Translations under genes and position numbers: made by a program
Shown: piece by piece, positions 14,275 through 59,099 of the stretch
Layout of the letters: every line of letters starts with the position of its first letter
Position numbering within the stretch: position 1 is the stretch's first letter
Notes under the pieces: model-generated
What the model saw: the letters and a program-made list of their open reading frames with translations, nothing else
Databases searched by the model: none
What the model was told of the DNA's origin: nothing
From: Prorocentrum cordatum
Lineage: Eukaryota > Sar > Dinophyceae > Prorocentrales > Prorocentraceae
Length of the DNA stretch: 64,000 nt
Assembly (NCBI GenBank): GCA_963575745.1
Contig: CAUYUJ010001454.1
Coordinates: 33,501-97,500 of the forward strand
Direction of reading: 5' to 3'

Positions 14275-14424
14275 CCGGCGGTAACCTGCTTCAAGACATC
14301 TCGGCTCTAGGGCTCTTGGATCCCACAGGAGCTCAGGGGGTGTCGGCGCCGCGGGGAAGCGGCGCGGCGGCCATCGCTGCCATCGACGAGTGCGGCATCT
14401 TCCAGGCAAGCCAGGCCGCCTGCT

Positions 14425-16037
14425 TTGTGTGCTGTAATTTGTTGTTTTGTTGTCGTGTGTGCAAAGACGGACGGGTACGACTTTTCAGTGCTTGCGAGAC
14501 GTTTCCAGCTGGAGGATATTTCCCCGACTGTACCATTTTTGCAGTACTCACAGGATTACGGACAGAGACCAGATTCTGCTGTTGAGAGGGCATCTCGGAA
14601 AAGGCAAATTCAGGATACCGAGCAGATTGTACGTGACCTTCCATTGGACGGGAGATTGAATACTGCCGACTCCACTCCAGATAGTGATAGCCATTGTGTA
14701 GTCCCACCTTCATTTGTGAATATGAATACAGGACTCATGAATATGATGCAGACTCCTTCCAACGCAGCTGTGGCGGGAGCTACAACCAACGGAGGGCGTG
14801 CGGGAGGGGCTCCAGTAGGTCAGGTCAGTCCTGGAGGTCAAGGATCTGGAGGCGCTCCTGTTGTTCCTAGAGGCCCAGCTCCACAAGGTGCTCTAGGGGG
14901 ACCCCCAGGTATGCCCACGGAGGCACAACAGGCGGCGGCCCAAGCGGCTGTTGTCCCTGAAGGTGCTGGGGAGCGTCAGGGTATGCAGGGTGTTAGCGAC
15001 GACGCCCAACGAAATGTCAAACATCGTGTCAACGGTCCTCACGAGGCACTCTTGGGAGAACTCGAGGAGAAGCGAAAGAAACTCAGTGTGGTCTCGGACG
15101 AGGCCCCATCCTGGTTCAAGGCCTTCGCGGAGCTCAACGTGCTTGAGAGCAAAGTTAGGCAACAAGAAAACGTCGAAATCAGGGCCGAAATTCAGAGCAT
15201 CTCGAATCGTCAGGAGGCTTCCGACATCAGGATGCACAACTTGGAACGACAGTTGCAGGATATCAAGAAGAACCCCAGTGTGGTATCAGGTGCAGCCTCG
15301 ACTACGGCACCTTCCTACGGAGGGGGCCCACCAGGACTCTCAGGACCCTCCAGTTTCAGTCCCAGCTATGTGGAGCTCACAGGCTGGACAGACTGGAATG
15401 GGACAGCGGTTGCACGTTCGGCCAGTATGATGAGAGACACGGACGCTGCACAATTCATCACTAATTTGAAGACGGCCATCGCAGCAGAGGATGAAGCTAG
15501 GATCGATTACGAGGGCACATTACGTATGAATGGAAGTAGAATGATGTTGAGTACGATCAAAATCAAATTCATTGTAGGAACCGACTCTTCGACATTATAC
15601 AACGTGAAGCGTGCTTTTGATGATGCTTTAACTCCGAATCCCCAAAGGAATGCGGCTCAGGTTTCGAGGTCACCTCCAGATTATGACAGCATGTTCCAGG
15701 GCATGTTACAACGACCCAGTCGGGTCCGTGTACGCATAGAGGCCCCACCTTGGAAACGTGGTCATATCGGGGCTGTGGGACGCTTCTATGGGACATACCG
15801 CGAATGTACCAACAGTGAGGCTATGGAGATCAGGGGGAGACAGGATCGGGACCCAACGGACGGAGCACAATGTGGACTAAGCCGCAGGACCCTCAGCATC
15901 GACCCGTGGAACTGGCATCCTTTCGTATCAATACGGGGTGGACAGTGGACCGCGAGATCTGGGAGGGTGTACTTATGCGAAGCGGTGTGACGACTACATA
16001 CGACACATTTGTTACGAGTCTTGCCGGCAGGGTGTGA
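14425..16037 (+). pseudogene. LINE ORF1 (nucleic-acid-binding-like protein), element 2
   Basis: The frame is open from about 14425; the first ATG is at 14722. The protein has a Gly/Pro/Gln-rich N-terminal half, a charged helical segment likely to be a coiled coil (around 15060-15270) and a C-terminal globular part. That part begins SYVELTGWTDWN, matching SYIEFKGWISRE in the copy at 25002-26498, and contains the shared IEAPPWKRGH/VECAPWRTPH motif. The original frame stops at 15988. A shift near the G run at 15832-15836 restores similarity (MWTKPQDPQ against WFTQNPQAD) and leads to TGA at 16035-16037, in frame with ORF2. L1-type ORF1 proteins have a similar coiled-coil plus RRM plan; that function is inferred here. 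Confidence 0.7.
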
Positions 16038-16040
16038 CGG
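16035..16040 (+). promoter_or_regulatory. ORF1/ORF2 junction stop UGA-CGG, candidate readthrough site (element 2)
   Basis: TGA CGG TGC separates the repaired ORF1 frame from ORF2 in the same frame. The same nine bases occupy the corresponding position at 26496-26504 in the other full-length copy. UGA followed by CGG is the core of a known leaky-stop class in plant RNA viruses. No experimental support exists here, and termination-reinitiation is an alternative. Confidence 0.5.
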
Positions 16041-19000
16041 TGCAGAGGTGCCAGTCGGGCTGGTGGCCCCACAGCCCAGCATAGGCTAGGCACCCAGAAT
16101 CTTATGAAACAAGGGGCTACAGCAGATCGGGGATTTGCTTGCATGAGGGCACTTCTTTCTCACGGCTGTGAAGTGTTCTGTTTACAGGAGTGTGAACACT
16201 TACCGTCCAATTCAATTCAGCTGCTTGGCTGGCACCTAGTTTATTCAAGTGACAGGAAGGCTTCCATAGCTTTGAGGGGGAAGTCTTGTCACAACATAGT
16301 TCGCTCTTGGAGTAATCATGCTCGTCTTGGTATTGTGTGCTTGCGTCATCCGTGTATCTTTCTTGTCTCTGCGTACTTTCCGAACAGATCGGGGAAACGT
16401 TCATTGGAGGTGGCTTTTGAGATGCTGAAAACAATCGAAACAACTTATCGGAGGTGGAAGGAGGAGTGCAGATACACATGTGAGCTTGTGATTGCAGGGG
16501 ATTTTAATGTTGAGCTTGCGCCCGACATCACCTGTTCAGGAGGCACGGTGACTGGAGGTGCTGTGCAGATTCTCGACGGGAGGGGATATGGGAATGATAC
16601 GGAGGATAGACGGTGGGAGGAGGACATGTGGCGATCTCAGCTGCAGGAGTGGCTGTGTCGGATGCGCTTGCTGGCAGTCAATTCTCTTGGCTCGCCGTGC
16701 TCTCGGCAGCCGACCTTCGTGCATCGTGCGAATAATGCTCGACGCAAGTCTTGGACGAAGACTATTGCGCCAAAAGTGCTTGACTATCTCATGGTCCCAC
16801 AATCCTGGGAGGGTGACTTGGTTGAATGCCGAACAGATTGGATCCCAGAGACCCCGACTACCAACTTCTCGGATCATGCCTGTGTCTACGCCGAGTTCCA
16901 TATGCAGAACCCTCAGGTCACGAAATATCAAGGCCCCCCTAGCCACCACACAAGCCACAAAGAGTTCCAATCGTATCGGGAGGAGGCCCAATTTCAGGTC
17001 CTGGCGGACGTCCAGATCCCGACGGTGCCCCCACAACGTCTTGCTGAAACGATTGCTGGACATGCGTTACCGCTCCTCACGGTGAGGGCCCCCAGGTACT
17101 CTCGAGGGCTCCCGCCGAGTAGGACTCCCCAGCATGCCGACCTGGAGGTACAACTCAGAGAGGCACGTGCTAGGAAGGACAGAGCGTTGGCTCGGGACCT
17201 TCGGCGTCGCATCAGACCGCTTGCGCGGGAATGCCGCCGACGGAAGGTGGAGTGGGAGGCGCTGCCATCTAGGAGAGGGAGGAGGACACGTGTGACGGAG
17301 TTGAGGGTGACGGACACTGGGGGAGGGGATATGGGGCCTACGACTATGATGACGGAGGACAGGGAACTGTGGGCGGAGGAGGTGGAGCGATATGCTGTGC
17401 AGAGTATGACTTGTGATGACTCCAGAGCCCGCAATCGGGGGCTTGTGTCCACACTGCGTCGCCATGCATCTCAATCTACGGCCTCTTCGGACAACGCACT
17501 TACGATTACATACTCTACTATTCTGCAAGCGCGGAGCAGGCTCCGAACAGGACGGGCCTGTGGGCCCGGCGGCATCTCGGTTGAACTTCTCAAATCTCTT
17601 TCGTGGAGGTCAGTGCGTGCTATTGGTAAGGTTTTCTCTGATATATTCAACGGGCTTCGCCCGACGCCAAGGGAATGGCAGGAAGTGTACCTCGCACTTA
17701 TGCCGAAAACGAGCAAACTAGAAACATTGCGACAAACAAGAAACCTGCTTGTCGGAAATACCTTGGCCAAGTGGTATCTTGCGTGTGTGACGATTTTACT
17801 GGAACGATGTGTGGAACCCTTCATGAGTGATATGGCGGTTTACGGTTTTACTAGCGGACGACGTTGCTGGGAGATTTCATCGGCCATGAAATGTATTGCA
17901 CAACATGCTTCCACATGGGGGCGAGATCAAACGGCGTGGCTCCTCAGCTGTGACATCGAGCGGGCGTTTGATGCTGTGACGTTGCCGACAGTCTCGAGAG
18001 CGATGACGGCCCTTGGGATCAGTGCACGGTTGCAGTATGCGCTATTGGAGCCTCTCTTATCTACTTCATGCACGGTGCTGTTTGAAGGAGTGACAATCCC
18101 CAATGTGCAGTGGGATAGGTCGCTTCGTACTGGGGGTACCGAATCACCTATCGCGTTCACTATTGTCACTATTGCTATGTGGCGTGATGTGATTGCTCGC
18201 CTGGATCAGCGCGGTTTCGGAGTCGAGATGCCATGCCATGATGATCATTGTCGGTATGCACGTTGAAATCATGCTCTCTGGGCTGACAATATTTTTCTGG
18301 CCGCCAAGTCAGCATCGGAGGCGCAGGTAACGGCCACTGCCTTCACTACTGCTCTCAGGGATTGGGGGATGGAGTGGAAGGAGGAGAGTCTAGAGATGAT
18401 GGTGTGTGGTACTCAGTACACTGATACGGTCACGGTTCAGATTGGCTCGCGGACTGTACCTTTCAAGCAGGTTGAGAGTTTGAATGTGCTGGGGTATCAG
18501 ATTCCCAGAAGTTTCACTTCTATCCACACGGATGTGCAGGAGCGCGTCCAGCAGGCCCGAAGGGCATTCTTTGCGCAGGTGCAGTATTTTACGTGCAGGG
18601 CGCTGCCCCTGGTCAAGAAGTTTCGTCGATACCAATCGATTGTGCAGAGCCGTCTTTTATATGCAGCAGAGGCCATCGCGATTGACAGTGAGTGTGTGAG
18701 GGTTATTCACGCGTCCGAGGGTATGTGTCTTCTGAGAATGTCAGGGAGGAGGAAGCCAGGAGATGTGGGGTGGGAGGTATGGCGGCCAGCTGCACTGACG
18801 CGAGTCAGGACAATCTTCTGCGATGGGGGTTTCCCGTCGGCTGTGCAGATGCTGTGTTGGAAGAGCTGGGGCATGATGCGCTCCACGAGGCAATACTTAC
18901 TATCTTTGGAGGAGGACAGGACGGCAAGGACGGAGGTAGAGGTGGAGGGATCAACGACTCAACGTGCTAAACGTGTTCGCTTTGCGGATGGACGGGGGGA

Positions 19001-20309
19001 GGATGTACCTACAGCGACTGTGATGGAGGTGGATGGGGAGGATTACGGAGATGGAGAGGCGGCTGGAGGATCTTTGCTCGCAGGTTGCCTGTTCCATTGC
19101 CCGCTCACAGCCGATGCCCTCTGGAGAGGGAGCTGCCCACACTCTCAGAGGCGAGCCACTTGCCGTCTCAAAGGGGAGGAGGGCCTTTCGAGACTCCCGA
19201 CGTGCGCTTATGATGTACAATGTTGGCTGGGTCACGGCTCGCGACGCAATAACAGAGGTTCTACGACAACACGGCAACATGGCCTTATCTAGTTCGGGCA
19301 AGCGGCTTCGTGGAGGCCCTGTGTCTGTGGGCGGTCGGTCTTGGCAGTTTCCCTACATTCAGTTCTTTGGGGAAAAGTGGTGGGAGTCTGTGCGGGGCGA
19401 TTGGGTTCAGTTCTTGGAGGTATGGAAGCAACTCCTTACACAATACAACAAAACTAAGGTCTATGATTACTTTGTGGTGTCTTGGAAGGGCTCTCCTAAT
19501 GGGCCTCGAGGCCCCCCTGGGGCTCGAGAGAAGGCCGATGCTGAGGCGGTCGACATCGCGACCAACCCTCTACACCCCAAGTACGACCCCAAAGAGTCCG
19601 CCAAGCTTGCAATGCGTTATGCTATGATCCAGGAACGTGCGACTGTGTGGGATATAACCTCAGAGGGTTTTGCTGCTGAGTTCAAGGGTGACTCATTACT
19701 TATCTGCTCCTGGTTACAGGGGAAATGGAGATGTGAGAATCGTGGCTACTGCAAGGGGACAGCTGCCATGATTGATTGTACCTTTGAGCTCGCTGCGTGT
19801 TTCAATCTGAGGCCTGCTGCCTTGGGGCGTGAGATATGGAGACACGAATTCAGGGAGGACAATACACGAGCGGATGAATTGACGCATGAGGCCAGATGTG
19901 GCCGCACATTCTACAGAACTCATTGTTATCTATATCCATTCGAAACTTATCTCTTACCGTTCGCTATCAGGGGAGGCTTTGATGGCGGGGTTGACCAGCA
20001 AGGATCAGGATGTGGTTTTTGGCTTCAGATCGGCTTAATCAATACTCAGTGCAATCCCAGTGAGATAGGCATCGCTTCCGCGAGAACCGTGGGTCCTTTC
20101 CCTGCTGGGCATGAGTTTGCTGTTTCTAGTGCCGTGCCCCTCGTTTGGAGGGATGTGGCCGAGGCCGCGTGGCTCCTTGAAGGAGCTACAGTCACAGAAT
20201 GTGAATTGTCGGCAGCCGAAGCGCTGTTCAGCGCTGCCCGTGTGCTACTGCGGGACCTGTCCTCGCCCAGCTGCACTCAGCTGGGAACGCGAGTCCAAAC
20301 AAACAAACA
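16038..20309 (+). pseudogene. LINE ORF2: APE endonuclease, reverse transcriptase, permuted RNase H (element 2)
   Basis: The frame is open from the TGA at 16035-16037; the first ATG is 16104, which lies after the endonuclease Asn (GTQNL). APE motifs are LQEC, GDFNVE (D133 counted from 16104) and FSDHA. RT motifs are LLSCDIERAFDAV (D617) and RTGGTESPIAFT. Then comes an in-frame TGA at 18264-18266, followed in the same frame by NHALWADN. The frame changes at about 19030-19290. The rest reads GDSLLICSWLQG (D220 counted from 19033), HEFREDNTRAD, FDGGVDQQGSGCGFW (D317) and VTECELSAAE (E391), the permuted RNase H order. No stop occurs before the AAAC tail, so the frame runs on into the host hairpin to 20346. 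Confidence 0.85.
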
Positions 20310-20320
20310 AACCTGCTTCA

Positions 20321-23257
20321 CGGTTTACCGCCGGTTCCAAGTTTGAAAGATATTTGATAATTCATTTTGAGAAACCGGATTTTTCGCACCTGTAGTGGGT
20401 TATGCTGCGTCTGCCAGTCAAATTCTCAGGTCCGTAGGTGCAGTATTACTATCAAAACACTTGGAGCAACCGACTGTGTTCCGAGTCATCTTGACACGCG
20501 TTCACGGTTTTCTGTCCTTTTCTCGAGATTTCGGAGAGCTACAGAGCTGATGCTTACAGAAACCGATTCAGAATCAACAGGCGCGTTCGTCTGCTGCATC
20601 CAGAGGTCTGATCTCGGTCTGCCACTCGAGCTAGGTCCGTAAAACTTTTGTATTCTTCGAGTCATTTTGACCAGTGATCTCGGTTTTCTGTACTCAACTC
20701 AAGATTCAGAGGAGCTACAGAGCTGGTACGCACATAAAGCGATTCAGTATCACCGGGCGCGTTCGTCTGTTGCATCAAGAGGCCTGAACTCGGTCTGCTA
20801 CTCGAGCTAGGTCCACGACACTATTCGTATGTTCATGTTCTCTTTAGAGGCGCTGACGGTATTCTGTAGTTAACTCGAGCTGTAGCGCAGCTACAGAGCT
20901 GGTGCGCACAGAAAGCGATTGAGAATCATCAGGGGCGTTCGGCTGAAGCATCCAGAGCCCTGAACAGAGTCCGCTACTCGAGCTAGGTCCGCAAAACCAT
21001 TCGTATGCGACCGATTTGTTTCGAGTTTTTTGGCCCTCGCTTCAGAAGCTTCCTTCGCGTGTTTCGAGGAGCGCTGAGCAAGAAAAGAGCTCTACAAGGT
21101 CCCCAGCGGTAACCTGGTTGACGGTTTACCGCCGGTTCCAGTTCCGGGGCGCTGGAGAACCAACGTTGCGTAAAACCCAAGAACAACATTTCTGTAGTTT
21201 TTAAGTTCATATTCACGAACGTTTTCGTCTGTTGACCTGCTCTCTTCTGAGCTCTACCAGGGTCCCGGCGGTGACCCGGTTGACGGTTTACCGCCGGCTA
21301 CCATGCCTCGTAGAGCTCTTCGTTATCGATGAGCTAGAGGAATTCCGGCGCGGGGTGGAGCTAGTAACTCGTAGAGCTTCCCTTAGCTAGTTGCTGGAAG
21401 CTTAAGAGTAATTCCGGCGCGCTGGAGAGCGGAGGCCGAACTATTCTTTCTGCCAATTCTTTGGACACAATATACGGCAAGGAAGCTCTACGAGTCCCCC
21501 AGCGGTAAGAAAGGTTGATGGTTTACCGCCGGCGCCAATTGGTCGACCCGGCCCGGGCGGACAATGTGTTAACATTGGGTCGGTTTTGCGAATATTTGAA
21601 AGATATTTGACAATTCATTTAGAGAAAGCAGATTTTTCGCACCTGTAGTGGGTTATGCCGCGTCTGCCAGTGAAATTCTTAGGTCCCTAGCTTCAATATT
21701 ACTATCAACGCACTTGGAGGAACCGACTTTTGATGTAAACCGAAAAAACAACGTGATTTTTCGAGTTTTGGCTCTCGCTTCAGAATCTTCCTTCATGTGT
21801 TTAGAGGAGCGCTGTGCAAGAACAGAGCTCTACGAGGTACCCTGTGCTCCGTTTGGGAGTCTTAGGGCTCAGCTGTCACAGGTGTCCGCGCCCTGACTCA
21901 AACTCAAAAACGTGGTTGACGGTTTACCGCCGGTTCCCAGTAATTCCGGGGCGCTGGAGAGCTAGTTAGTTGGCAAGAAAAATCTCGACGGACCTTTTGC
22001 TGACTTTTGGTCGGTTGAAAGTTTTGTTCTCGAAATTCAACCATTCGTTAGAGCTCTAGTATTTTTTTCCCTGATATTCGATCTTTTTCCCGCTCGCCAT
22101 CTTGATCTCAGCTCGATCGGGTACCTTTTACTCTCAAAAAACGCACGGGCGGGATCGGCTGTTTTGAGTTATGTTGACGTGCGTTGTCGGTTTTTTGTAT
22201 TTAACTCGAGCTGTAGGACAGCTACAGAGCTGATGTTTACAGAAACCCTCTCAGAATCATCAGGTGTGTTTATCTGTTGTATCCAGAGGTCTGAAGTCGG
22301 TCTGCTACTCGAGCTAGGTCTGCGAAGCTATTCGTATTGTTCGAGTCATCTTGAAAGGTGCTGTTGGTTTTCTGTACTTAACTCGAGCTGTTGGACAGCT
22401 ACAGAGCTGATGTTTACAGAAACCCATCGAAAATCATCAGGCGCGTTCATCTGTCGCATCTCGGTCTGAATTCGGTCTGCTACTCGAGCTAGGTCCGCGA
22501 AACTAGTCGTATTATTCGAGTCATCTTGACAGGTGCTGTCGGTTTTCTGGACTTAACTCGAGCTGTAGGACAGCTACATAACTGATACTTACAGAAACCG
22601 ATTGGAAGTCATCAGGCGCGTTCATTTGTTGCATCTAGAGGTCTGAAATCGGTCTGCTACTCGAGCTAGGCCCGCAAAACTATTCGTATTATTCGAGTCA
22701 TCTTGACAGATGCTGTTGGTTTTCTGTACTTAACTCGAGCTGTAGGAGAGCCACAGCTCGTACGCACATCAATCCGTTCAGCATCATCAGGTGCGTGCGT
22801 CTGTTGCATCTAGAGCTCTGAACTCTATTCGAGTCAGCTATCAGCGGAGGCTGAACGACTATTCGTTCTCTGCCAATTCTTTGGACCTAATATATGAGAA
22901 GGAAGCTCTACGAGTCCCCCGGCGGTAAGAAAGGTTGACGGTTTACCGCCGGCGCCCAGTTGGTCGACCCGGCCCGGGCAGACAATCTGACGAGTTTGTG
23001 TCGGTTTTGCGAAGATGTGAAAGATATTTGACCATTCATTTTGAGAAAGCAGATTCTTCGCACCTGTGAACGACTATGAGGGCCTCTGCGTCTTAATATG
23101 AGCTCTGTAGGCGCACATTTACTATCAAAACACTTGGCCGAAACAACTTCATCTCGACATGCAAAAAATCAATGTTCAATTTTTCGAGAAATGCCTCCAG
23201 AAGCTTTCTCTTTCGACTCTGAGCACTCTCACGCGTGGAAGGAGCTCTACGAGGTTC
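20321..23257 (+). repeat. Mosaic of S177 arrays, hairpins and modules, block 6
   Basis: After the right hairpin half come a companion module, S177 monomers (20470-21000), hairpins 21103-21135, 21264-21296 and 21499-21532, and a companion module (21540-21820). A damaged hairpin follows (21830-21940), then a leader module (21940-22150), an S177 array (22160-22870) and hairpin 22919-22952. The block closes with a companion module that ends in the left half of the hairpin split at 23275. Confidence 0.82.
21846..21910 (+). mobile_element. Tiny 5'-truncated retroelement remnant in a hairpin
   Basis: The hairpin starting AGCTCTACGAGGTACCC is replaced after about 21842 by some 70 bp ending CAAACTCAAAAAC. 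It then resumes as GTGGTTGACGGTTTACCGCC. The inserted piece resembles the 3' end of the LINE at 24787-30290 (both have CGCGCCCTG followed by CAAAC-rich sequence). The 3' junction falls where the other hairpin insertions do. The left hairpin arm is lost, so no target duplication can be scored. Confidence 0.5.
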
Positions 23258-24850: not shown

Positions 24851-25001
24851 AGGGCCCACGTCAGGGCGCACGCACAGGCTTGCCTCAAGCCCCCCTCTCG
24901 TGCGGTGCGTGTTTGACGTATCGCGGGGGCTGTGTTCACATTGAATCCTCGCTCTCGTCTTTGATATCAAGATATCGTGGGGATCGCAGGAAGATCAGGA
25001 T

Positions 25002-26498
25002 TTGTCTGGATTTTACAAAAGACCACTGTGGGCGGTTGGATTGAAAACGGACTCGCAGGGAGCATATATTATACCGTCAGAAGACGATCAGAGTGAATAT
25101 TTCACGTCAGCTGACTTTGGTGTGGATTGTGACCCACATCCGTGTGATTGGCTGAAAGACACATCAGCTACTGTGCCGCGATTAACGACGCAGGAGAAGA
25201 GGGAAGATCAGATAGCACTTGAGTTGGAAATTTCTCCACCAGAGGCATTTGTTCAGCAGGAGGCGTACGATTTCAAGAAGATTGGGCAATCAGATAGATA
25301 TCAGGCTGCACTTCACACATTGCGTACAGTCAAAGAGAGGAATAAACGACGTCCGTCAGCAATCATGGCGGATGACAAAGCAGAAGATAGCAAAATGGGA
25401 GGGAATGCGAGTAGTGAATGGTTGAGAGAGGTGAGGGCGAAAGGGGGGGGCAAAGGTTCCAGTGCTTCGAGTGGTCTGGCCGCGGCTTCCAGTGCTGCTG
25501 TCCAGGCGCCTCATTTAGCTACAGCCCGAGTCCCCAATGCTACGAGTGGTCTGGCCGTGGCCCAAAGTGCTGCTGTCCAGGCGCCTCAACCAGCTACAAT
25601 GACGCCCGAGGAAATGTTCAGACAGATTTTGAAAGGCCAGAGTGAAGTAACTGCGACGGTTAGTGAGTTCAAAACATCGGTTGCAGCTGATTTACATGTC
25701 ATGGAGGAGAAGATTGATAGAACAACGTCAGATGTCAAAACGTTATCGGAGCAAATGAAACAGGCCCAAGCTGACATTCAGAATCTGAAAAATGGAGACG
25801 CTCAATCTTGCGCAAGCGGTTCGACTAGATACGGATCAGGTGACGCGGGCAGTGGTGCAGGGCATAATTCGAACTGGGTACCATCATATATTGAGTTCAA
25901 AGGATGGATATCACGTGAGGGTTGGAAGAATAGAGAGATAAAACAAAGGGAGGCCATGAAACAACAGGTGCTGACCGACAACATAACGAAATTATTGGGA
26001 TTGGCATCGCTGGACGCAACACATAATGCTGCTTTTGATCATGCGAGAACTGCGGGGGAGAATACTGGCAGGTACTGGCCATACACACGAGGGCGGATCT
26101 ATTTCAAAAAGGGGACGGCAGTGGATATCATATGGCAGGTTCGGAATTGTTTCGACAGCGAATACAAGAAGGGAAACACTGACCTCCCACCGAATGTAAA
26201 GTTTCATGTAGAATGCGCGCCATGGAGAACACCCCATGTCCAACAGGTTGGTAAGTTCCAGAGTTGCTTTGCGGAAGTGAAGAAAACGACGGGGACAATG
26301 TGCAAGGGGGAGCCAGGGCCGCCAAAATCATACATATGGTTTACACAAAACCCACAGGCAGATCCAGACACAAGAGTACTGATTGCTGAGTGGGGTGTAC
26401 ACAGCGGGTGGGCGCTACACACTAATAATCTGAGGAGGGTGGAGCCTGAGGTAGATCAAGAGGGGTTACTCACGAAGCTCAGACAGACGAACAATTGA
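25002..26498 (+). CDS. LINE ORF1 protein (element 3)
   Basis: The frame is open from about 24945 to the TGA at 26496-26498. No ATG occurs until 25365 (ATCATGGCGG, a good eukaryotic context), so the protein is either 377 aa or begins upstream by another route. A Ser/Ala-rich repeat (two GLAxAxSAAVQAPxxAT units at about residues 157-198) is followed by a predicted coiled coil (about 210-270; heptad-like LKGQSEV... through MKQAQADIQNLKNG). A C-terminal domain runs from SYIEFKGW to the end. It shares the SY(V/I)E(L/F)GW and APW motifs with ORF1 at 14425-16037. A role as RNA chaperone in the retrotransposition particle is inferred from position. I cannot assign a named fold. Confidence 0.75.
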   Translation: MSGFYKRPLWAVGLKTDSQGAYIIPSEDDQSEYFTSADFGVDCDPHPCDWLKDTSATVPRLTTQEKREDQIALELEISPPEAFVQQEAYDFKKIGQSDRYQAALHTLRTVKERNKRRPSAIMADDKAEDSKMGGNASSEWLREVRAKGGGKGSSASSGLAAASSAAVQAPHLATARVPNATSGLAVAQSAAVQAPQPATMTPEEMFRQILKGQSEVTATVSEFKTSVAADLHVMEEKIDRTTSDVKTLSEQMKQAQADIQNLKNGDAQSCASGSTRYGSGDAGSGAGHNSNWVPSYIEFKGWISREGWKNREIKQREAMKQQVLTDNITKLLGLASLDATHNAAFDHARTAGENTGRYWPYTRGRIYFKKGTAVDIIWQVRNCFDSEYKKGNTDLPPNVKFHVECAPWRTPHVQQVGKFQSCFAEVKKTTGTMCKGEPGPPKSYIWFTQNPQADPDTRVLIAEWGVHSGWALHTNNLRRVEPEVDQEGLLTKLRQTNN

Positions 26499-26504
26499 CG
26501 GTGC
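26496..26504 (+). promoter_or_regulatory. ORF1/ORF2 junction, UGA-CGG-UGC in frame (element 3)
   Basis: ORF1 ends in TGA at 26496-26498 and the next codons CGG TGC continue in frame into ORF2 without another stop. ORF2 has no ATG before its catalytic Asn codon; the first ATG is 26547. The same TGA CGG TGC occurs at 16035 in element 2. Readthrough producing an ORF1-ORF2 fusion fits the sequence; reinitiation at a non-AUG codon is the alternative. Confidence 0.55.
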
Positions 26505-29500
26505 CAGTCTGCCACTCAGCTCGCGGTGGCAACTTGGAATGTCAACATGAGGAATAGCGAGCTTTTGCCAGCAATGCTGGAGTTTTGTCATTATGATGTG
26601 CTATGCTTGCAGGAGTGTCAGTACATGTCATCGGCAGCATTTGAAGCATGTGGGTGGCAGGTGCGTTTTAGTGTGTGCCGACGAGCTGCTGTGGCCTTCA
26701 GGGGCCCATGGGCGGCGACTATTTCGGACAGTAAGTGCGGTGAGAGGTTTGCTGTTGTACAATTTGCATCTGTGGTCGTGTCCTCAGTGTACCTACCCAC
26801 AGTGCAGCGGGGAGATGATAGGCTCGATGAATATTGTGACGTTCTAGCTAAGCTGTGTGCATGCATGCAACTATGTAGCGAGCAATACCAGGGGTCCAAA
26901 GTATTGCAGTTTGTGGGGACAGATGCGCAGACGGAGCTGGAACCAAATCTCTTGGGGTTCACGGGAGAAGGATTGGAGGAGGTGTGGATGAGGTCGGAGG
27001 CGAAACATCATGAGGAGAGGAGGGACATGCTCGTGCGCTTTCTGAATCACTGGGGTCTTTGTGCAGCCAACACCTACGGCGTGCGACAAGTGACGCACAG
27101 GCCGTGGAGTACCAGCAGCTACTCCAGGGTGTTGGACTATGTATTTGTGCCGACACAATTTGCAGGTACCGAGGTGGCTCGGACCAACTGCTCATTTGAA
27201 TGCACGGTGGAATTTGTGGATCCTACACAGGATCGAGCGTCACGCTACAGTGACCATGCGAAGGTAGGTGTGAGGATAAAACATGTGTCGGTGCGCAAGC
27301 CTTTCGTGCGACCCAGGCCCCCGAGCCTCATCAATTGGGCCCCGGAGGATTATGAGTCAGCGAATGTGTTCAGTACACTGGCCGATGTGCAGGTACAACA
27401 ACATATGAACCAACAGGGTGACATAAATATACAAACAGTTGGACAGATGCTTGTGAGTGCTGCGACGATGTGTAGGCATACAAAGGGCAGGGCGGATACT
27501 AAACCAATCAAAAAACCTGACCAACTCGTGGACGTTGAAGCGGAGTTAAGGAGGGGTGTCTTCGGTGAGCGTAGGAAACAATTACTGAGACGTCAAAAAA
27601 CACTCCGAAGAAAGTTCAGGCGGGAACAGCTCCTCAAGGACTCCACTGGCCTCAAACATGGACCCCGTAGGTGTATCAAGGAAATGCTGTGTGACGGGAT
27701 ACTGACAGAAAATAAACAAAGATGGGTGGAGGAGCTCAACAAACACGTACAACGGTCATATACATGTGATGGGGAGGGAGGAGCTGCAAAGAGAGAGTTG
27801 CATCGACTACGGACACAGTGGGAGGCAGAGGGCAGAACTACGAACAGGGTCATATCTATGGGTGTGTTGCTGGGGGCTCGAGCCCGATTGAAGGGCGGCA
27901 CCGCAGCGGGCTCTGATGGCCTGGTGGCGGAGATTCTCAAAGCAATACCTTGGAATGCATTGAGATTGATACGACACTCATTTCAAGAAATACATGATCA
28001 GAAAAAGTCGTCACCTGATTCGTGGAGAAAGTTGTGCGTGCAGTTGATTCCAAAAATGAGCATGATCCAAACATTTGGGGAGACTCGTGCAATATCGCTG
28101 TTGAGTGTTATGAGCAAGTGGTACATGGCGTGCCTTCTTATTCTTGTGGAGGAACATGGACATATCAAAAAATTGGCGACATATGGATTCCAGAAGAGTC
28201 ACAAAGTTCATCACATGACGGCCCCTTTGCTGCACATGACACGTCATGCCACTCTCTGGGGAAAAGGCGAGTCGGTACATATGGGAATAATGGATATAAA
28301 GAAAGCGTTTGATCATGTCACTGTCTCGATGGTGATCCGCGCGATGGAACATCTGAGATACCCAACAGATCTGATTATTGCAATTGTGGAGCCTATGATT
28401 GGAAACACAGCAGTTTTTGATTTCCAGGATGTGTGCAGCGAAGAGATCCTGTATAACAAGTCGGTGCGAACTGGAGGGAAAGAAGGCCCAGTACTCTTCA
28501 ATATTGTGTTGGAGGCAATTTGGGCCTCTATTGCTGAATCATGGGAAGCATGTCATTATGGAGTACGATTGGAAGGCGAGGGGACACAACAGGCGCTGGT
28601 CAATCATTACATATGGGCTGACAATGTGGTGCTGCTGGCATCTTCGGCGAATCAGCTGAGGAATATGGTGAGTATGTTGACCGTGGCCCTCAGACGGGCT
28701 GGTATGGACTGGAAGATTGAGAGCCTGGAGTACCTTGTTTTTGGGCTGAGACAAAACCAGGGACCACAATCATTAGTCTGCGAACTGGGAGATGATATTT
28801 GTGCACGGGCTGGAGACCCCAGCCTGCCCTATCAATTACGTGAGGCGGTGGTTTTGCCGAGAAAAAGCGAGTGCGACATACTGGGAGTTAAATTCGTGAC
28901 GAACCCGAGGGATTTCCATGCAGTGCGGCACCGTATTGATGCAGGCAGGCGGTGTTTCTATGCTGATATTAAATTCTATCGATCACGCGCGGTGAGCATG
29001 AGGGAAAAATTCAGACGGTATCAGAGCAGAGTTCAACAGATCATATGCCATGGATGTGTGGGGTGGAGCTGTAATGAACATGTGCTGAACATATTGAGGA
29101 GCTTTGAAGGAAGATGTTTGAACACAATGCGGGGATTACATAGAAAAGAGACGGAAACGTGGGAGGAGTTCAGGGATCGCAGTACCAACAGATCCAGGGA
29201 GATGTTCAAGGAGGGGGGGTTCAAAACGTTGGTGGAGAAAGTTGTGAGGTACAACTTTGAATTCGCCGTGGAGGTATCCCAATATAAGTGCCACATGCCG
29301 TCCACTGTGTATAGCAAATCGTGGCAGCAGACGCTGCGCTCCATGTTGCACGTATCGGGGGAGTGGACGGTGCAGAGGGATGAAATGCTGGCGGCAGTAA
29401 GTCGGACGATGTCGAGAGAGGGAACGAGACGGCTCAGAGGCAGACCACGAATCGTGGCGAGCAGCTGGCATGCACCCTTTGAAAAATGGAGGTCGCTTCT

Positions 29501-30233
29501 GTGGCACGACACGTGCGTTGTACCGACGGATTGGGAGGAGTTTGTGGAACACATATCACAGATACCCAAAGTGGAGGATATGTTTGTGAGGAGGAGTAAG
29601 GAGAGGAGGATGGGAGGGTTTGCGAAGACACCGACAGATGACGAGTTGGCCCGACGTCTTGCAGTTATTAATGAACAGACTACGATATGGGACCCTGGGA
29701 TGGAAGGTATCGCTGTTGAAATGTGCGGGGACAGTAAAACGGTCGTACAATGGTTGAGGGGAGTCTGGGCCTGTGACAACAGTGGGTATGCCAAACGGAT
29801 CGCCAGGATACAAAATATCATGTATGACGTGAGTGAACAACACAACATACGATGCCCGACGTACGGTAGGGATTTCTGGAAACATATCTATAGGGAAGCC
29901 AATGCCTATGCTGATGAGCTGACACACCATGCGAGAGAAGGAAACTGTTACAGAATTTACAAGCACGACTATATCAAACAGAACAGGACAAACATCAAAT
30001 ACATCAGAGGATGCTGGGATGGTGGAGTGAGCAGTGAGGGTGCTGCAGGAGGTCACTGGATCGAAGTTGCTCCAGAGAATGGCCCGTGGACACTCGTGAG
30101 CTCAGAAGCCTACATGTTTGATGTAGGAGCCACCGTGACGGAGGCAGAATTATCTGCTGCCGAGCGCCTGTGCACAGGTGTGGAGCACATTGTTAAAGAA
30201 ATTTCCTCTGCAAAGCGGAGGAGGCGGATTTAA
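26499..30233 (+). CDS. LINE ORF2 polyprotein: APE endonuclease, WADN reverse transcriptase, permuted RNase H
   Basis: The frame is about 1244 codons, numbered here from GTG 26526. APE endonuclease (1-250): TWNVN (N5), LQEC (E30), VYLPT, GTDAQTE in place of the usual GDFN, LDYVFV and YSDHA. Reverse transcriptase (about 450-720): SDGLVAEIL, VQLIPK, MDIKKAFDHV (D590), RTGGKEGPVLFN and IWADN (D699) where most RTs have (F/Y)xDD. A linker with W-rich motifs follows. The C-terminal RNase H is in permuted order: GDSKTVVQWLRG (D1069), HIYREANAYAD (H1120, D1130), WDGGVSSEGAAGGHW (D1165), VTEAELSAAE (E1208). All five catalytic positions of RNase HI are present but start at strand 4. It would nick target DNA, prime reverse transcription and remove the RNA strand. 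The frame is uninterrupted, so it may be active. Confidence 0.9.
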   Translation, partial: RCQSATQLAVATWNVNMRNSELLPAMLEFCHYDVLCLQECQYMSSAAFEACGWQVRFSVCRRAAVAFRGPWAATISDSKCGERFAVVQFASVVVSSVYLPTVQRGDDRLDEYCDVLAKLCACMQLCSEQYQGSKVLQFVGTDAQTELEPNLLGFTGEGLEEVWMRSEAKHHEERRDMLVRFLNHWGLCAANTYGVRQVTHRPWSTSSYSRVLDYVFVPTQFAGTEVARTNCSFECTVEFVDPTQDRASRYSDHAKVGVRIKHVSVRKPFVRPRPPSLINWAPEDYESANVFSTLADVQVQQHMNQQGDINIQTVGQMLVSAATMCRHTKGRADTKPIKKPDQLVDVEAELRRGVFGERRKQLLRRQKTLRRKFRREQLLKDSTGLKHGPRRCIKEMLCDGILTENKQRWVEELNKHVQRSYTCDGEGGAAKRELHRLRTQWEAEGRTTNRVISMGVLLGARARLKGGTAAGSDGLVAEILKAIPWNALRLIRHSFQEIHDQKKSSPDSWRKLCVQLIPKMSMIQTFGETRAISLLSVMSKWYMACLLILVEEHGHIKKLATYGFQKSHKVHHMTAPLLHMTRHATLWGKGESVHMGIMDIKKAFDHVTVSMVIRAMEHLRYPTDLIIAIVEPMIGNTAVFDFQDVCSEEILYNKSVRTGGKEGPVLFNIVLEAIWASIAESWEACHYGVRLEGEGTQQALVNHYIWADNVVLLASSANQLRNMVSMLTVALRRAGMDWKIESLEYLVFGLRQNQGPQSLVCELGDDICARAGDPSLPYQLREAVVLPRKSECDILGVKFVTNPRDFHAVRHRIDAGRRCFYADIKFYRSRAVSMREKFRRYQSRVQQIICHGCVGWSCNEHVLNILRSFEGRCLNTMRGLHRKETETWEEFRDRSTNRSREMFKEGGFKTLVEKVVRYNFEFAVEVSQYKCHMPSTVYSKSWQQTLRSMLHVSGEWTVQRDEMLAAVSRTMSREGTRRLRGRPRIVASSWHAPFEKWRSLLWHDTCVVPTDWEEFVEHISQIPKVEDMFVRRSKERRMGGFAKTPTDDELARRLAVINEQTTIWDPGMEGIAVEMCGDSKTVVQWLRGVWACDNSGYAKRIARIQNIMYDVSEQHNIRCPTYGRDFWKHIYREANAYADELTHHAREGNCYRIYKHDYIKQNRTNIKYIRGCWDGGVSSEGAAGGHWIEVAPENGPWTLVSSEAYMFDVGATVTEAELSAAERLCTGVEHIVKEISSAKRRRRI

Positions 30234-35567: not shown

Positions 35568-38500
35568 TATTCTCATCAGGAAAGATGGATAGGTATAAAA
35601 TGTGATGCATCTCAAGCTTCGATAAGATAATCAGTCCGTCACAAATTCTTTATAACCTTGAACAGTCCACTTGAAATAGTGCCACCAATACGGCTCACCT
35701 TCCTGTGCAAACCAGAAGTCCCACGGCACAAATCCGTGGCTCATACTGCCGTGTGTACACCGTGTGATCTGTGCTCTTTTCCTCCGGTTCTTGTCAGACG
35801 CGATAAGGCAATCACGATGGTACGTCCATTCACCAAGACCATGCAACATGGCAGCCCGCGATATGGAATACGCAACCCCCTCACAGTAGATCCCACTTTC
35901 ATGTGTGTCGCTCGGGCTCTCCTGATACTCCTGCCGCGCGGCCCTCGGAGGCCTCTCCCCACCCACCTCCACCCCAAGGCTGGGTGTCCCACCCACTTCG
36001 ACGCGCAACCTCCTCCCCTGCGCTCTCTGCACCGCTCTCTGAATTAGATTTCTTCTATTTGGCGCCTCCTCCTCCTGGTTCGAAGTGCACGGCCGATCTG
36101 ATGGTCTATGCCGACATCTTGGCATAGCATACTGCGCCACATCCATGGCCCAGCCCAATTTTTTTTTGTTTTTTTCACGAACCTCTGAACAACTGTCTGA
36201 ACACCTGCTTCATAGAATTTCCTCCTTCCCAACAACAGTCGTGATTTTGTGTGCACGGCCCACTCCTCCTCCTTCTTCTTTCTCCTTCCCGTGAATATCG
36301 CCAACAGCCTGCCCTCCCGCGCGTGTAGCTTTTATACCGTGAACCTGTCCAGTGCCCTTCCGCGCGCATACAAAACAATACTCTGTACACAGCTAATATA
36401 TACCTCAAACATCGATCCCTGTAGGGAATACTTCTTCTACATCTGTAGTAAGCAGCATCGTGATACAAGGCTTCTTGAGGCTGTCCATCAGATCGTAGAG
36501 TTCCGTCCACTCATTATGTATCATAGCCCCCAGTGCTGACATTTTTTTCCCGCGGCAATCTAGCCTCCTGCAATAATCGTTCATCGTGCTGAGTCTGTGG
36601 CTCCAGCAACGCCACCTCCGCCACCGAAAACTGCACGCGTATACTTTCACTATCAACATCAGAGCGCCACGGGGCGCCACAAGCAAGGTACATGAGTGAT
36701 GATGGTTTCCAGCTCAAGCCTGCCCGAACCAATGGGAACGTAAGATCTTTCATCATACAAGTGGGTTCTTCCTTTGTTTTTGCAAAGATGTACATGTTAT
36801 CGGCCCACAGTGCATGTGAGATCTGTCTGTGTTTACCTAGGATCGGCGTTTCAAGTTCATAACCCATACCCTTGCTCCTCCATTTCTTCACCACCCTGTC
36901 CCAGAGATAGACAGAGACGGCCTTGAACAAGAAGGGGCTCTCGACCCCCCCAGTACGTATTGAACGATCCCACGATATCCAGTCCTCCCACACGATGCCC
37001 TCCCACGTCATTCTACACACGTTACCTTCTAGAGGTTCCAGCATTGCAATGGTCAGCGCCGGTGGGAATTCTAAATGCACCAAGGCATCTCGTGCGATGG
37101 CAATCGTGACATGATCAAAACACTGCAGCACATCGGCAGATCCCAGATACAAAGCGTCACCTTTCCCCGACATTGATGCATGCTGTGCGATTCGTTTGAT
37201 GGCAGCTGCTATCTCATACGGCCGACGACCTTTTGCAAAACCGTAAATTCCCACACTGGTATCCAGACTAGCTAGATGCTGTTCGGCCAGGATAGTAAGA
37301 CACAGGCTGTAGCATTTGGACATAAGTGGTATGAGTCAAATCTTACGGGTATCCGCTAGATTCTTAGTTTGGGAATTCTTAGGGATAAGTGTGACCAAGA
37401 ATCTTTTCCAAGAGCCAGGCGCACAATACTTACGACCTGCGATTGCCTGGAACAGCCGTTGCACCTGTCTCACCGCTGCCCAAGGTAGGAGGCGCAACAT
37501 CTCAGGATAAATCTTGTCGCGCGAGGCCGCGCCACCACTACGCAAGCGTGAAAGGGCCTGCGGCACAAGACTGAGCGTGATCTTGATTCTCTCCGCCTCC
37601 CCCATCCCGTGGAAACAATCCTGGATCACCTCATAATTATTCCTTCTGGCCGTGTCATCCTGGACGGTTTTCTTTTTCCAAATTTCCCCCACCCCTCTTT
37701 CCGTTCTTCCGAATCTTCAGAAATGCGTGTATCCCCGTTCTCGTCCTGGACTTCCAAGATCTCCGTATGGTTACGTACATTGCGTTGTCTGATACACTGC
37801 GCATGTTTGACGAGCTCAGCATGATACCTGCGTTTGTGTGGCCGATAAATCTTCCGAATCGTCATGCGCTCCTCCCACTTGGCCTCCCTCCTCAACCTCC
37901 TCATCTCCTTCTCAAGACTCCACAGAATCTCAGGCTTCCTTGGCCTTGACAGCCCTCTGCCTGTGCTGTGTGGTACGCCAGTGGCGGCCTGCGCAATGAT
38001 CTGGTTGATCTGGTCGCCTGGATGTCCACTGGCCGCCTCCCCCTCCACCTCTTCCTCCTCGCGCGTGCCGCCCTCCTCCTCCTCAGTAATGTCCTCAGGC
38101 ATGCTCTCCGCATCGCTATCCTCCACCACCTCCTCCTCCCTCGACACGCTCTCACTTTCCACTTCCATGTCGCACTGTCTCGCAGACTCGAATCTGCAGT
38201 CTACTCCTTCTTCAAACGTGACAGGCTCCATGCCGAGGTCGACAGCCCGACGGTGCTCCTGCTCATTCAGCGGTTTCCAGTTACGCATCGTCCCAATTCG
38301 ATTCGATTTTGGCTTCTTCCTACGTTGTCTGGGACCTATATCGATCGAGGCCGGCACAAGAGCATGATCACTGTAGTTCGAGCTGGAGCACCCTGGCAAC
38401 TGCACCCAATGAGTTGTGATATCTTTGCAGTCCGCCCTGCACGGATGTCCTATGTAATCTAGCACTTTCGGAGCCCCTGTCCCCGCGGGTCTCCACGTCG

Positions 38501-38955: not shown

Positions 38956-41505
38956 GGGGGAGGAATCAGAGGATGGAAATGATGAGGACGGATCTAATGG
39001 AGTTCTGTGCCACGTGGAGCATCAAGCTTGCTAATGCGTTTCACGAGCGTCAGCCGACGTGGAGGCCCGCGGGGACAGGGGCTCCGACAGTGCTAGATTA
39101 CATAGGATATCCGTGCAGGGCGGACTGTAAAGATATCACAACTCATTGGGTGCAGTTGCCAGGGTGCTCCAGCTCGAGCTACAGTGATCATGCTCTTGTG
39201 TTGGCCTCGATCGATATAGGCCCCAGACAACGTCGGAAGAAGCCGACATCGAGTCGACTTGGGGCGATGTGTAACTGGAAACCGCTGAGTAAGCAGGGGT
39301 ACCGTCGGACTGTTGACCTCGGCATGGAGCCTGTCACGTTTGAAGCAGGAGTAGATTGCAGGTTCGAGTCTGCGAGACAGTGTAGCATGGAAGTGGAAAG
39401 TGAGCGGGTCGCAGGAGGAGGAGGTGGAGGAGGATAGCGATGCGGAGAGCATGCCTGAGGACATTACTGAGGAGGAGGAGGGCGGCACGCGTGAGGAGGA
39501 AGAGGTGGGGGAGGAGGCGGCCAGTGGACATCCAGGCGACCAGATCAACCAGATCATTGTGCAGGCCGCCACTAGCGTACCACGCAGCACAGGCAGAGGG
39601 CTGTCAAGGCCAAGGGAGCCTGAGATTCTGTGGAGTCCTGAGGAGGAGATGAGGAGGTTGAGGAGGGAGGCCAAGTGGGAGGAGCGCAAGACGATTCGGA
39701 AGATGTATCGGCCACGCAAACGCAGGTATCATGCTGAGCTGGTCAAACATGCGCATTGTATCAGAAGGTGCAGTGTACGCAGCCGTACGGAGATCTTGGA
39801 ATTCCAGGAGGAGAACGGGGATACACGCATTTCTGAAAATTGGGAAGAATTGAAAGATGAGTCGGGGAATTTTGGAAAGAAAACCGTCCAGGATGACACG
39901 GCCAGAAGGAATAATTATGAGGTGATCCAGGATTGTTACCACGGGATGGGGGAGGCGGAGAGAATCAAGATCACGCTCAGTCTTGTGCTGCAGGCCCTTT
40001 CACGCTTGCGTAGTGGTGGCGCGGCCTCGCACGACAATATTTCTCTTGAGATGTTGCGCCTCCTACCTTGCGCAGCGGTGAGACTGGTGCAACGGCTGTT
40101 CCAGGCAATCGCAGATCGTAAGTATTGTGCGCCTGGCTCTTGGAAAAGATTCTTGGTCACACTTATCCCTAGGAATTCCCAAACTAAGAATCTAGCGGAT
40201 GCCCGTGAGATTTGTCTCATACCACTTATGTCCACATGGTACAGCCTGTGTCTTGCTATCATGGCCGAACAGCATCTAGCTAGTCTGGATACCAGTGTTG
40301 GAGTTTACGGTTTCGCAAAAGGTCGTTGGCCGTGCGAGATAGCAGCTGCCATCAAACGAATCACACAGCATGCATCATTGTGGGGGCAAGGTGACGCTTT
40401 GTATCTGGGATCTGCCGATGTGCTGCAGTGTTCTGATCATGTCACGATTGCCATCGCACGAGATGCCTTGTTGTATGTAGGATTCCCACCGGCGCTGATC
40501 ATTGCAATGCTGGAACCTCTAGAAGGTAACGTGTGTAGAATGACGTGGGAGGGCATCGTGTGGGAGGACTGGATATCGTGGGATCGTTCAATACGTACTG
40601 GGGGGTTCGAGAGTCCCTTCTTGTTCAAGGCCGTCTCTGTCTATCTCTGGGACAGGGTGGTGAAGGAATGGAGGAGCAATGGTATGGGTTATGAACTTGA
40701 AACGCCGATCCTAGGTAAACGCAAACAGATCACACATGCACTGTGGGCCGATAACATGTACATCTTTGCAAAAACAAAGGAGGAACTCACTTGTATAATG
40801 AAATATTTTACGTTGCCATTGGTTCGGGCAGGCTTAAGCTGGAAACCGTCATCACTCATGTACCTTGCTTGTGGCGTCCCGTGGCGCTCTGATGTTGATA
40901 GTGAAAGTATACGTGCGCAGTTTTCGGTGGCGGAGGTGGCGTTGCTGGAGCCACAGACTCAGTACGATGAACGATTATTGCAAGAGGTTAGGTTGCCGCG
41001 GGAAATGATCATGCTAGCACTGGGGGTTATGATACATGATGAGTGGACGGAACACTACGATTTGATGGACAGCCTCAAGAAGGCGGACAGAGTCTGGTTT
41101 CATGATGCTGCTTACTACAGATGTAGAGTATTCCCTGCAGGGGTAGATGTTTAAGGTATATTAGCTGTGTACAGAGTATTGTTTTGTATGCGTTCGAAGG
41201 AAGAACACTGGACAGGTTCACGGTTGAAAAACTACACGCGTGGGAGGGCAGGCTGTTGGCGATATTCGCGGGAAGGAGAAAGAAGAAGGAGGAAGAGTGG
41301 GCCGTGTGCGCAAAATCACGACGTCTGCTGGGAAGGAGCATATTATATGAAGCAGGTTTTCAGACAGTTGTTCAGAGGTTCGTGAAAAAACAGTTGGAGT
41401 GGGCCATGGATGTGGCGCAGTCTGCTATGCCGAGATGTCGGTATAGACCATCAGATCGGCCGTGCACTTCGAACCAGGAGGAGGAGGCGCCAAATAGAAG
41501 AAATC
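38940..41505 (+). pseudogene. LINE ORF2 copy on plus strand (right arm of inverted pair), first part: EN end and RT
   Basis: The copy begins within the endonuclease domain (MMRTDLMEFCATW) and shows YSDHALV. It changes frame near 39415 in the GAG-rich stretch. It continues through a Glu-rich insertion to RT motifs LIPRNS, GSADVLQCSDHV, RTGGFESPFLF and HALWADN (GAT at 40750-40752). The RT frame stops at 41152. Further post-RT pieces (41184-41505) match the left arm until the TIR element interrupts them. DVLQCSDHV has Ser where the left arm has Phe. Confidence 0.8.
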
Positions 41506-41529: not shown

Positions 41530-41740
41530 GGATACACTGAAGGGGGGGGGTCCAGAACCCCGCCCCCACCTCCCTCCCTCAAGGGGGGGGGGGGGGTCCG
41601 ACCCCCCCTCCTCCCTGGCCCCCTCCCCCCTCCTTCCCTTGAAGGGGGGTGGGGGGGGGGGGGTCCGGACCCCCCGCCCCCCTCCCCCCCTTGGCGCTGG
41701 AAGGGGGGGGGGGGGGGGGTCGGACCCCCCCCTCGTGCGT
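41530..41740. repeat. Poly-G/poly-C subterminal block, left
   Basis: Runs of 8-15 G alternate with C runs around GGGGTCCGGACCCC-like symmetric cores. A matching block lies at 43140-43380 near the other end of the TIR element. G-quadruplex or hairpin formation is possible on either strand. ORFs in this block are low complexity and not called. Confidence 0.85.
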
Positions 41741-43393: not shown

Positions 43394-44564
43394 GAAGAAA
43401 TCTAATTCAGAGAGCGGTGCAGAGAGCGCAGGGGAAGATCGCGTGTGTCGAAGTGGGCGGGACACCCAGTCTTGGGGTGGAGGTGGGCGGGGAGAGGCCT
43501 GCGAAGGCCGTGCGGCAGGAGTATGAGGAGAGCCCGAGTGACACACATGAAAGTGGGATCTGCTGTGAGGGGGTGGCGTATTCCATATCGCGGGCTGCCA
43601 TGTTGCATGGTCTCGGTGAATGGACGTACCATCGTGATTGCCTTATCGCGTCTGAGAAGAATTGGAGGAAAAGAGCACAGATGACACGGTGTACATACGG
43701 CGGTATGAGCCACGGATTTGTGCCGTGGGGCTTCTGGTTTGCACAGGAAGGTGGGCCGTATTGGTGGCGCTATTTCAAGTGGACTTTCCAAGGATATAAA
43801 GAATGTGTGACGGACTGTTTATCGAAGCTTGAGATGCATCACATTGTAGACATGTTCATCCTTCCTGAGGAGAAGCGGGGCGGAAGGAGAGACGTGGAGG
43901 AGGAGGGGGGGGGGGGGGCTCATATCAACAGTAGGGAGGGGGGAGACAAGCCAAACGCCTTGCAGCAAATCTGGAGAACGAAACCGAGTTTGATTATAGG
44001 GACGGGGTGGCGGTGGAACTCAAAGGGGACTCGATGACGGTGGTGAGCTGGATGAGGGGAATGTGGAACGTACAGAATTTCGGATGCCAGCAAAGGGTGG
44101 CTCAGGTCATTGACTTTCTGGATAATGCTTGTGACAGATATGGCTGTAGAGCACCAGCATACGGCATGGATATATGGGAGCACTTTTATCGGGAATGCAA
44201 CAAACGAGCTGATGATTTGACGTGGGAGATGCGTGACAAACCAGGTGTTTCGAGAAAACAAGTAGAACGGCAAAATCTAAACTTTGAAGGTGAGGCGCTC
44301 ATCGCGGTCCGTGGTTCATTCGACGGCGGCGTTTCCTCTATCGGTGCTGGTGGAGGATGGTGGCTGGATGGAGAATTTGTGAGGTCCAGTGGCAGGGAGA
44401 CTGCCAGAAGAGGTGAAAGTTCGTGGAGGGCACGATACCGACCGATAGCGGAGGAGGCGTTTGGCCTGGACCCGCGATCGTCAGTGTCTGAGTGCGAGCT
44501 TGAAGCGGCGGCCAGGCTCGCGATCATGGTCTGTGAAATTCTTCAGTTCAGTGCTGCTGACTAA
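43394..44564 (+). pseudogene. LINE ORF2 copy, plus strand, last part with permuted RNase H
   Basis: This continues the copy at 38940-41505 after the TIR element. A post-RT linker lies in one frame (about 43396-44037). The RNase H lies in another (44007-44564): GDSMTVVSWMRG (D8 counted from 44007), HFYRECNKRAD, FDGGVSSIGAGGGWW (D106) and VSECELEAAARLA (E164). This is again the permuted order seen in the other three copies. The frame ends in TAA at 44562-44564. The linker-RNase H frameshift makes it a pseudogene, although the RNase H piece itself is intact. Confidence 0.82.
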
Positions 44565-45640
44565 TATTATCTTATTCTTTTGTGTCGCACACATCACAGA
44601 CCTATGCCTGCCTGGCTCGGTATTCTCGGGTAGCCTCCCTTTTGATCCTCGTTTGGAGGGTCGCCTTTGGATGACTTGCGTGATGAAATATCGTTATGCT
44701 GTCGTTCACGACTTGGAGATAATCGTGACATGCCTAAGCCACGCTGGCTCGGCACTTGTCAACTCTGATGCCTCGGCCACCCTGGCTTGGCAATCACGGT
44801 GCACTGTGTCTGTTTTCGACTTGATATCTCGGGGCTGTGTGTCGCCCCACTCTCTTTTCGGCCTCGTTTGGAGCGCCACTTCTGATATCATTCTCGTCTG
44901 GTGTTAGATTTCGGCATGCCTAAGCCACACTGGCTCGGCATTTGTCAATCCTGATGCCTTGGCCACCCTGGCTCGGCAGTCTTGCGGCACTATGGTCTGT
45001 TTCTTGCATCTTACGTTGGGGCTGTGTGCCGCCAATTCTCTTTTCGGCCTTGTTTGGAGCGCCACTTTCATACGACAGTCAAGCTTCGGTGTTCGACAGA
45101 GACATGCCTAAGCCACTCTGGCTCGGCACGTTTCATTCTAGATGCCGCAGCCACCCTGTCTCGGCAGTCTCATCGCTGTATCGGACTTGATATCGCGGGG
45201 CTGTCTGTCGCCCACTCTTCTTTTCGGCCTCGTTTGGTGTGCCAAGTACTGTTCTCATTCACGGACTTGTGTGGATTCGGCATGCCTAAGCCACCCTGGT
45301 TCGGCATTTCTCATATCTGATGCCTCGGCCAACCTGGCTCGGCAGTCTCGAGGGCGGTGGGGTACGTTGAACGTGTTTCTGCTGGGCTGTGCGTCGCCCC
45401 TTTCTCTTTTCGGACTCGTTTGGAGTGCCACTTGAAGGTGTCGCTCGGACTTGTTGTCGCACGCTGTGTATTCGGATGCCTGAGCCACCCTGTCTCGGCG
45501 CGATTGGCGCGGTTCTCTTTTTTTTTCGGCCTCGTTTGGAGTGTCTGTTGTTACGTGATCACGTGACGGGGTCCCTGTTGGTGAGGCCGTGCAGGCGAGA
45601 ATCGGAGGATGGAAGTGGGGCGGTCTTGCCGCTGCGATCC

Positions 45641-53830: not shown

Positions 53831-53980
53831 TAAAGAATGACCATTCCCCCGAGGGATCTTTGGCGTGGGCTTGCGCGCCCAGGCGTGGCCCCCCTCGCGC
53901 CCCCCCCCTCATTATAAGCCGCGCGCCAAAGGTCGCTCTTTCTCAGGGTCACTCCTGCGTGTAGCCGACAGGCGTGTGGC

Positions 53981-56341: not shown

Positions 56342-56517
56342 GACGACAATCAAGGGAGGAAAAACCACCCGGACCCGACAGTTGGCGTTTATTCAACGGC
56401 CCCGGGCATTTACTAACAGCGTTGCCCTGTTCGATTCCTTCTTTGAGTGCGTTTGCTAAACGGCTTTGCGTGTCGGGGTGATCATTATGGGGGTGGATTT
56501 TCTGCCCTCTAGACAAG
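56342..56517 (+). other. Intron, GA-AG type, flanked by an 11-bp direct repeat
   Basis: AAGGACGACAA occurs at 56339-56349 and 56515-56525. Splicing exon 1 after AAG (56341) to GAC at 56518 keeps the frame (TSEK|DDKGDKAG) and gives a 176-nt intron starting GA and ending AG. The unspliced frame would stop at 56414-56416. Non-GT donors and repeat-flanked introns are known from dinoflagellates. The exact cut cannot be fixed within the repeat, but alternatives give poorer termini or break the frame. Confidence 0.7.
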
Positions 56518-58941: not shown

Positions 58942-58980
58942 GCGCCGAGTGTTCTCGAACGAGAGGAGGAGGATGGGGGT

Positions 58981-59040: not shown

Positions 59041-59099
<59 letters not shown>

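Follow-up and report, generated by a model that had tools for sequence, protein, structure and literature searches.

Does the 3' end of the second open reading frame (ORF2) of a dinoflagellate long interspersed nuclear element (LINE) encode an RNase H whose two halves have changed places? The question is raised by a stretch of 64,000 nucleotides from Prorocentrum cordatum (contig CAUYUJ010001454.1, positions 33,501 to 97,500; here called the window), which holds four divergent ORF2 copies with RNase H motifs. The best copy (26499-30233, forward strand) spans 1244 residues from stop to stop in a single open frame and is laid out as an endonuclease-like start, a reverse transcriptase (RT) and an RNase H at the extreme end. 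Judging from motif order, conservation and a structure model, the ORF2 3' end of this LINE lineage very probably encodes an archaeal-type RNase HI that has undergone natural circular permutation. In such a domain the chain would run from strand 4 to helix E, through a linker of ~20 residues, to strands 1 to 3 and helix A, with the old termini joined and new ones created where helix A would otherwise lead into strand 4.

The first-pass annotation had claimed the order D70, H124/D134, D10, E48 (RNase HI numbering) in the four copies, and this order was found in all of them, always on the forward strand, when the window was scanned in six frames with regular expressions. All four motifs lay in a single frame in copy 1 (6107-6580), the best copy (29727-30161) and copy 4 (44025-44510); in copy 2 the scan caught three (19843-20217), the fourth being a GDSLLI at the expected place that the strict pattern missed. 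From the motif scan and alignment, the permuted domain occupies 43935-44561 in copy 4 and, together with an upstream piece, 5813-6640 in copy 1 and 19360-20265 in copy 2 (all forward strand), with 36 to 38% identity to the best copy within the domain. Elsewhere in the window, on both strands, the six-frame scan found nowhere more than one motif within a plausible domain, and a DGG match at 6505 was out of frame inside copy 1.

With the domain alone as the query, 4 relatives were retrieved, and with an eight-sequence profile 39, accepted at E values up to 10 (the weakest of the 39 reaching 1.8e-5). Fourteen of these came from the EukProt dataset 'Pyramimonas_sp.AAC.1', which is a green alga by taxonomy and may be contaminated, and the remainder were proteins from ENA, JGI and NCBI contigs. 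Of themselves, these relatives lend no support to an alveolate host. A full-length ORF2 search gave no relatives among 2587 candidates, and none occurred among 7 stretches of GTDB genome contigs or among 16 viral contigs. When the four copies were added to the relatives, motifs of both halves were present in 31 of the 43 sequences, all 31 in the permuted order and none in the canonical order from strand 1 to helix E, a count that covers relatives gathered with the permuted family as the query and places canonical kin outside it; the other 12 showed one half or none by the motif patterns. Chance motifs were rejected as an explanation because the four divergent copies and 27/39 relatives share one order of both halves.

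Conservation was counted in a 40-row alignment over spanning rows only, with three short fragments excluded. The D10 equivalent, D1174 (30018-30020), was kept in 35 of 36 rows (1 gap), the D134 equivalent, D1139 (29913-29915), in 34 of 36 (2 gaps) and the E48 equivalent, E1217 (30147-30149), in 28 of 31 (2 gaps, 1 Ala), while the D70 equivalent, D1078 (29730-29732), was Asp in 21 of 33 (8 gaps, 3 Gly, 1 His); all these codons are on the forward strand. Apart from the D70 equivalent, these positions and those of the neighboring Arg and His all fall within the top 25 columns by conservation, and 17 second-half pieces show no variation at D, G, G, E and A. The residues named earlier as D1069, H1120, D1130, D1165 and E1208 are indeed those present, at numbers 9 too low throughout; counted from stop to stop, they are D1078, H1129, D1139, D1174 and E1217. 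The identity of the fifth catalytic residue has to be revised as well. It had been taken to be the His (H1129), which is kept in 31 of 36 spanning rows, and the Arg of YRE (R1132; 29892-29894, forward strand), kept in 33 of 36, is the likelier candidate. According to the available portions of two studies, archaeal-type RNases H carry Arg at the position where others carry His (PMC5348765, PMC4640811), and Arg occurred in 69 of 70 canonical archaeal-type sequences of our reference set, which consisted of 69 fetched loci and ST0753. Because this archaeal-type trait appears in nearly all family rows, the domain is called a permuted archaeal-type RNase HI, and its D-E-D-R-D residues are present, with the reservation given above for the D70 equivalent. 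The nearest kin of the family are the archaeal-type RNases H.

When the domain was modeled and its halves were compared with known structures, each half fitted the opposite half of archaeal-type RNases H whose structures have been solved. The AlphaFold2 model formed one confident domain (predicted local distance difference test score, pLDDT, 87.7; predicted template modeling score, pTM, 0.80) with the elements in the order b4, b5, aE, linker, b1, b2, b3, aA, which a second, longer model reproduced. On the forward strand, the first half (strand 4 to helix E) corresponds to model rows 64-139 (29709-29936), the linker between the former C and N termini to rows 140-160 (29937-29999) and the second half (strands 1 to 3 and helix A) to rows 161-235 (30000-30224), both halves being delimited by the model and by structure and profile matches. 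The first half matched residues 26-140 of 3u3g at a root mean square deviation (rmsd) of 3.4 angstroms (77 aligned, 29% identity) and residues 91-199 of 4e19_B at 4.5 (77 aligned). The second half matched residues 1-69 of 3u3g (model 159-230, rmsd 2.7, 66 aligned) and 67-133 of 4e19_A (model 159-228, rmsd 2.7, 65 aligned). Among viral structures, the best Foldseek match was a Pithovirus protein named ribonuclease H (E 1.2e-3; template modeling score, TM, 0.25 over the query). A linker of this length could also suit a domain-swapped dimer, in which the swapped order is real and halves from different ORF2p molecules pair; the confidence of the single-chain model speaks against this arrangement, which we regard as very improbable.

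Sequence profiles pointed to the same kin. When compared with the reference set by hhalign, the family gave a first alignment of its positions 64-143 on the archaeal-type C-terminal half (69-136, E 5e-11) and a second of positions 162-217 on the N-terminal half (2-59, P 0.1), and a head-to-tail doubled template yielded a single alignment of 62-216 on 60-180. In a profile search of PDB sequences, the top matches were archaeal-type RNases H, the best being 3u3g (E 1.8e-4), with the first half alone aligned, on its C-terminal half. For strand 4 to helix E, homology to archaeal-type RNase HI is supported by both the PDB profile search and hhalign. For strands 1 to 3 and helix A, homology is less certain, with the structure match and the motif register in its favor.

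Several results weigh against a permutation. After the second-half columns were shuffled, the half score was equaled in 11 of 400 shuffles and the doubled score in 27 of 400, and the second half alone found no RNase H among Pfam and PDB sequences. Since shuffles reach these scores, the case for homology in the second half depends less on the profile score than on structure, invariance and motif register. In addition, the half-matches had modest Z scores (3.4 to 4.0, with unrelated whole-length rows up to 5.3), and whole-model fold lists ranked RNase H low (rank 46), which we put down to sequential aligners. Finally, Pfam RVT_3 runs through a helix lying before strand 4, aligning rows 23-138 to profile positions 19-123. 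This helix (model rows 40-52; 29637-29675, forward strand) occupies the place of helix A in the canonical domain and keeps A-[KR]-R-x-A. Such an alignment, together with the failure to detect the second half by sequence, is what would be expected if the domain were the remnant of a canonical RNase H that retains helix A and then strand 4 to helix E, has lost strands 1 to 3 and stands ahead of an unrelated C-terminal module, in which the likeness of DGG and TEAEL to D10 and E48 is superficial. The upstream helix has no kept Glu, however (row 42 holds Lys 8, Glu 5 and Arg 5 among 21 letters), whereas E1217 is well kept at the other end of the domain, and in two archaeal-type RNases H the supposedly unrelated module superposes on strands 1 to 3 and helix A with an rmsd of 2.7 angstroms. 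Considering both sides, we find such a remnant improbable.

The original suggestion of a circular permutation with its cut point between helix A and strand 4 is supported by the order in divergent copies, the conserved D10, Arg, D134 and E48 equivalents, the strand order 4-5-1-2-3 of the model and the crossed half-matches. The earlier statement that no ordinary DG..AEL half lies upstream also agrees with the second model, in which residues 740-1046 are predicted, at low confidence, as helices only. A hidden canonical domain upstream was rejected, as no strands were predicted, again at low confidence, in the 300 residues before the domain. Under the permutation, the two halves would assemble into an ordinary RNase H fold with one D-E-D-R-D site formed by D1174, E1217, D1078, R1132 and D1139.

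The permuted RNase HI of this probably APE-type LINE lineage probably acts on hybrids of complementary DNA (cDNA) and RNA. Its substrate would be the cDNA:RNA hybrid produced by target-primed reverse transcription, of which it would cleave the RNA strand, and removal of the template RNA would most likely aid second-strand synthesis. A permuted but dead fold, retained solely for nucleic-acid binding, would account for the residues lost in some copies, such as the 3 Gly and 1 His among 25 letters at the D70 position; few columns of the domain are nevertheless conserved as well as the catalytic ones, and we consider loss of activity unlikely. Moreover, it is likely that an archaeal-type RNase H was captured and duplicated in tandem, and that the circularly permuted, catalytically competent RNase HI which resulted was fixed in an old LINE clade, with helix A as the very C terminus of ORF2p. 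Along the likely route, the duplication would have been followed by loss of the two outer halves, namely the first half of the leading copy and the second half of the trailing one, and what is left of the leading copy's helix A may be the helix ahead of strand 4. RTs from the three families in the window are only 26 to 29% identical to one another, so the permutation would appear to be old or to have spread.

Compared with known systems, the domain shares its motifs, the Arg as fifth residue and its secondary-structure elements with archaeal-type RNase HI (S. tokodaii 2ehg, LC11-RNase H1 3u3g/4h8k, Halobacterium 4e19; Pfam RVT_3), and each half matches, whereas the order of the halves is swapped and the termini have moved accordingly. 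The L1 elements of plants and oomycetes and the Utopia elements of oomycetes are likewise non-LTR (long terminal repeat) elements that have captured an archaeal-type RNase H, again with Arg, and in the available portions of the papers (PMC5348765, PMC4640811) these RNases H are described without permutation; as far as those portions go, the Utopia RNase H precedes the RT, whereas here the domain stands at the ORF2 end. A 2025 preprint on CIRPIN (PMC12667903) reports one circularly permuted pair of RNase H-like domains from a structure search of AFDB clusters, and the accessible part of its text specifies neither the identity nor the residues nor the function of the pair and makes no mention of transposons. 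The 2014 survey of the RNase H-like superfamily (PMC3985635), the reference classification of the fold, contains neither 'permut' nor 'circular' in the text at hand. In the sections available from other papers, the permutations concern DNA methylases and HEPN domains (PMC7824862, PMC3710099), and 'permuted' refers to the RT thumb (PMC10830420). No permuted RNase H in a retrotransposon was found in the open-access full texts searched. Both protein folding and the evolution of reverse-transcribing elements have been studied with RNase HI as a model. If correct, the present reading would provide a rare example from nature of a protein fold rewired within a mobile element and would indicate that LINEs can rewire a captured domain. 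It would also mark a clade half-missed by order-dependent annotation, Pfam RVT_3 having been detected in 16 of 40 members. The effect of chain connectivity on RNase H activity and on its coupling to the RT would, moreover, become open to experiment.

As for the rest of ORF2 in the best copy, residues 11-54 matched Pfam Exo_endo_phos (22.6 bits, E 1e-4, below the Pfam cut-off of 24.5). The RT domain expected of an APE-type non-LTR retrotransposon is present at residues 517-738 (28047-28712, forward strand; Pfam RVT_1, E 3.8e-16), and its PDB matches include R2-type RTs. In place of the usual YxDD or FADD, the RT motif is WADN in each of the window's four RT pieces, namely at 28614-28625 in the best copy and in the open reading frames 18267-19292 (+), 36514-37335 (-) and 39355-41154 (+). 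An ORF1-like frame (24945-26498) lies in frame with ORF2, a lone TGA (26496-26498) standing between them, and ORF2 has no ATG ahead of the endonuclease motif; translation of ORF2 by read-through or re-initiation is possible.

The copy 2 element (14285-20320, forward strand; end positions counted by hand on the printed sequence) carries a 9-base duplication, CCTGCTTCA, at each end (14285-14293, 20312-20320) and has a tail of CAAA repeats; such features mark target-primed insertion. A target-site duplication with a simple 3' tail was established in this one of the four copies. Copy 2 is located within a dispersed repeat with the inverted arms GGCGGTAA and TTACCGCC (14275-14293, 20312-20334), and two more A-rich tails abut the right arm near the same point (21921, 24519), which hints at repeated insertion there. 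Unlike copy 2, the best copy apparently sits in a 177-base satellite. Arrays of a 176- to 177-base tandem unit occupy much of the first 34 kb (36-34326), one of them beginning ~60 bases past the stop of the best copy, and a 186-base array (44727-45433) begins ~165 bases past copy 4.

Other features of the window include a U6 small nuclear RNA gene at 62141-62247 on the reverse strand (64.2 bits, gathering score 44), which marks the source as a eukaryote, and a putative tRNA-Gln(ttg) called by ARAGORN at 41538-41614, also on the reverse strand, which adjoins a long simple-repeat tract. Two long frames at 53918-59043 on the forward strand may belong to a host protein with several C2 domains, which they resemble by eye.
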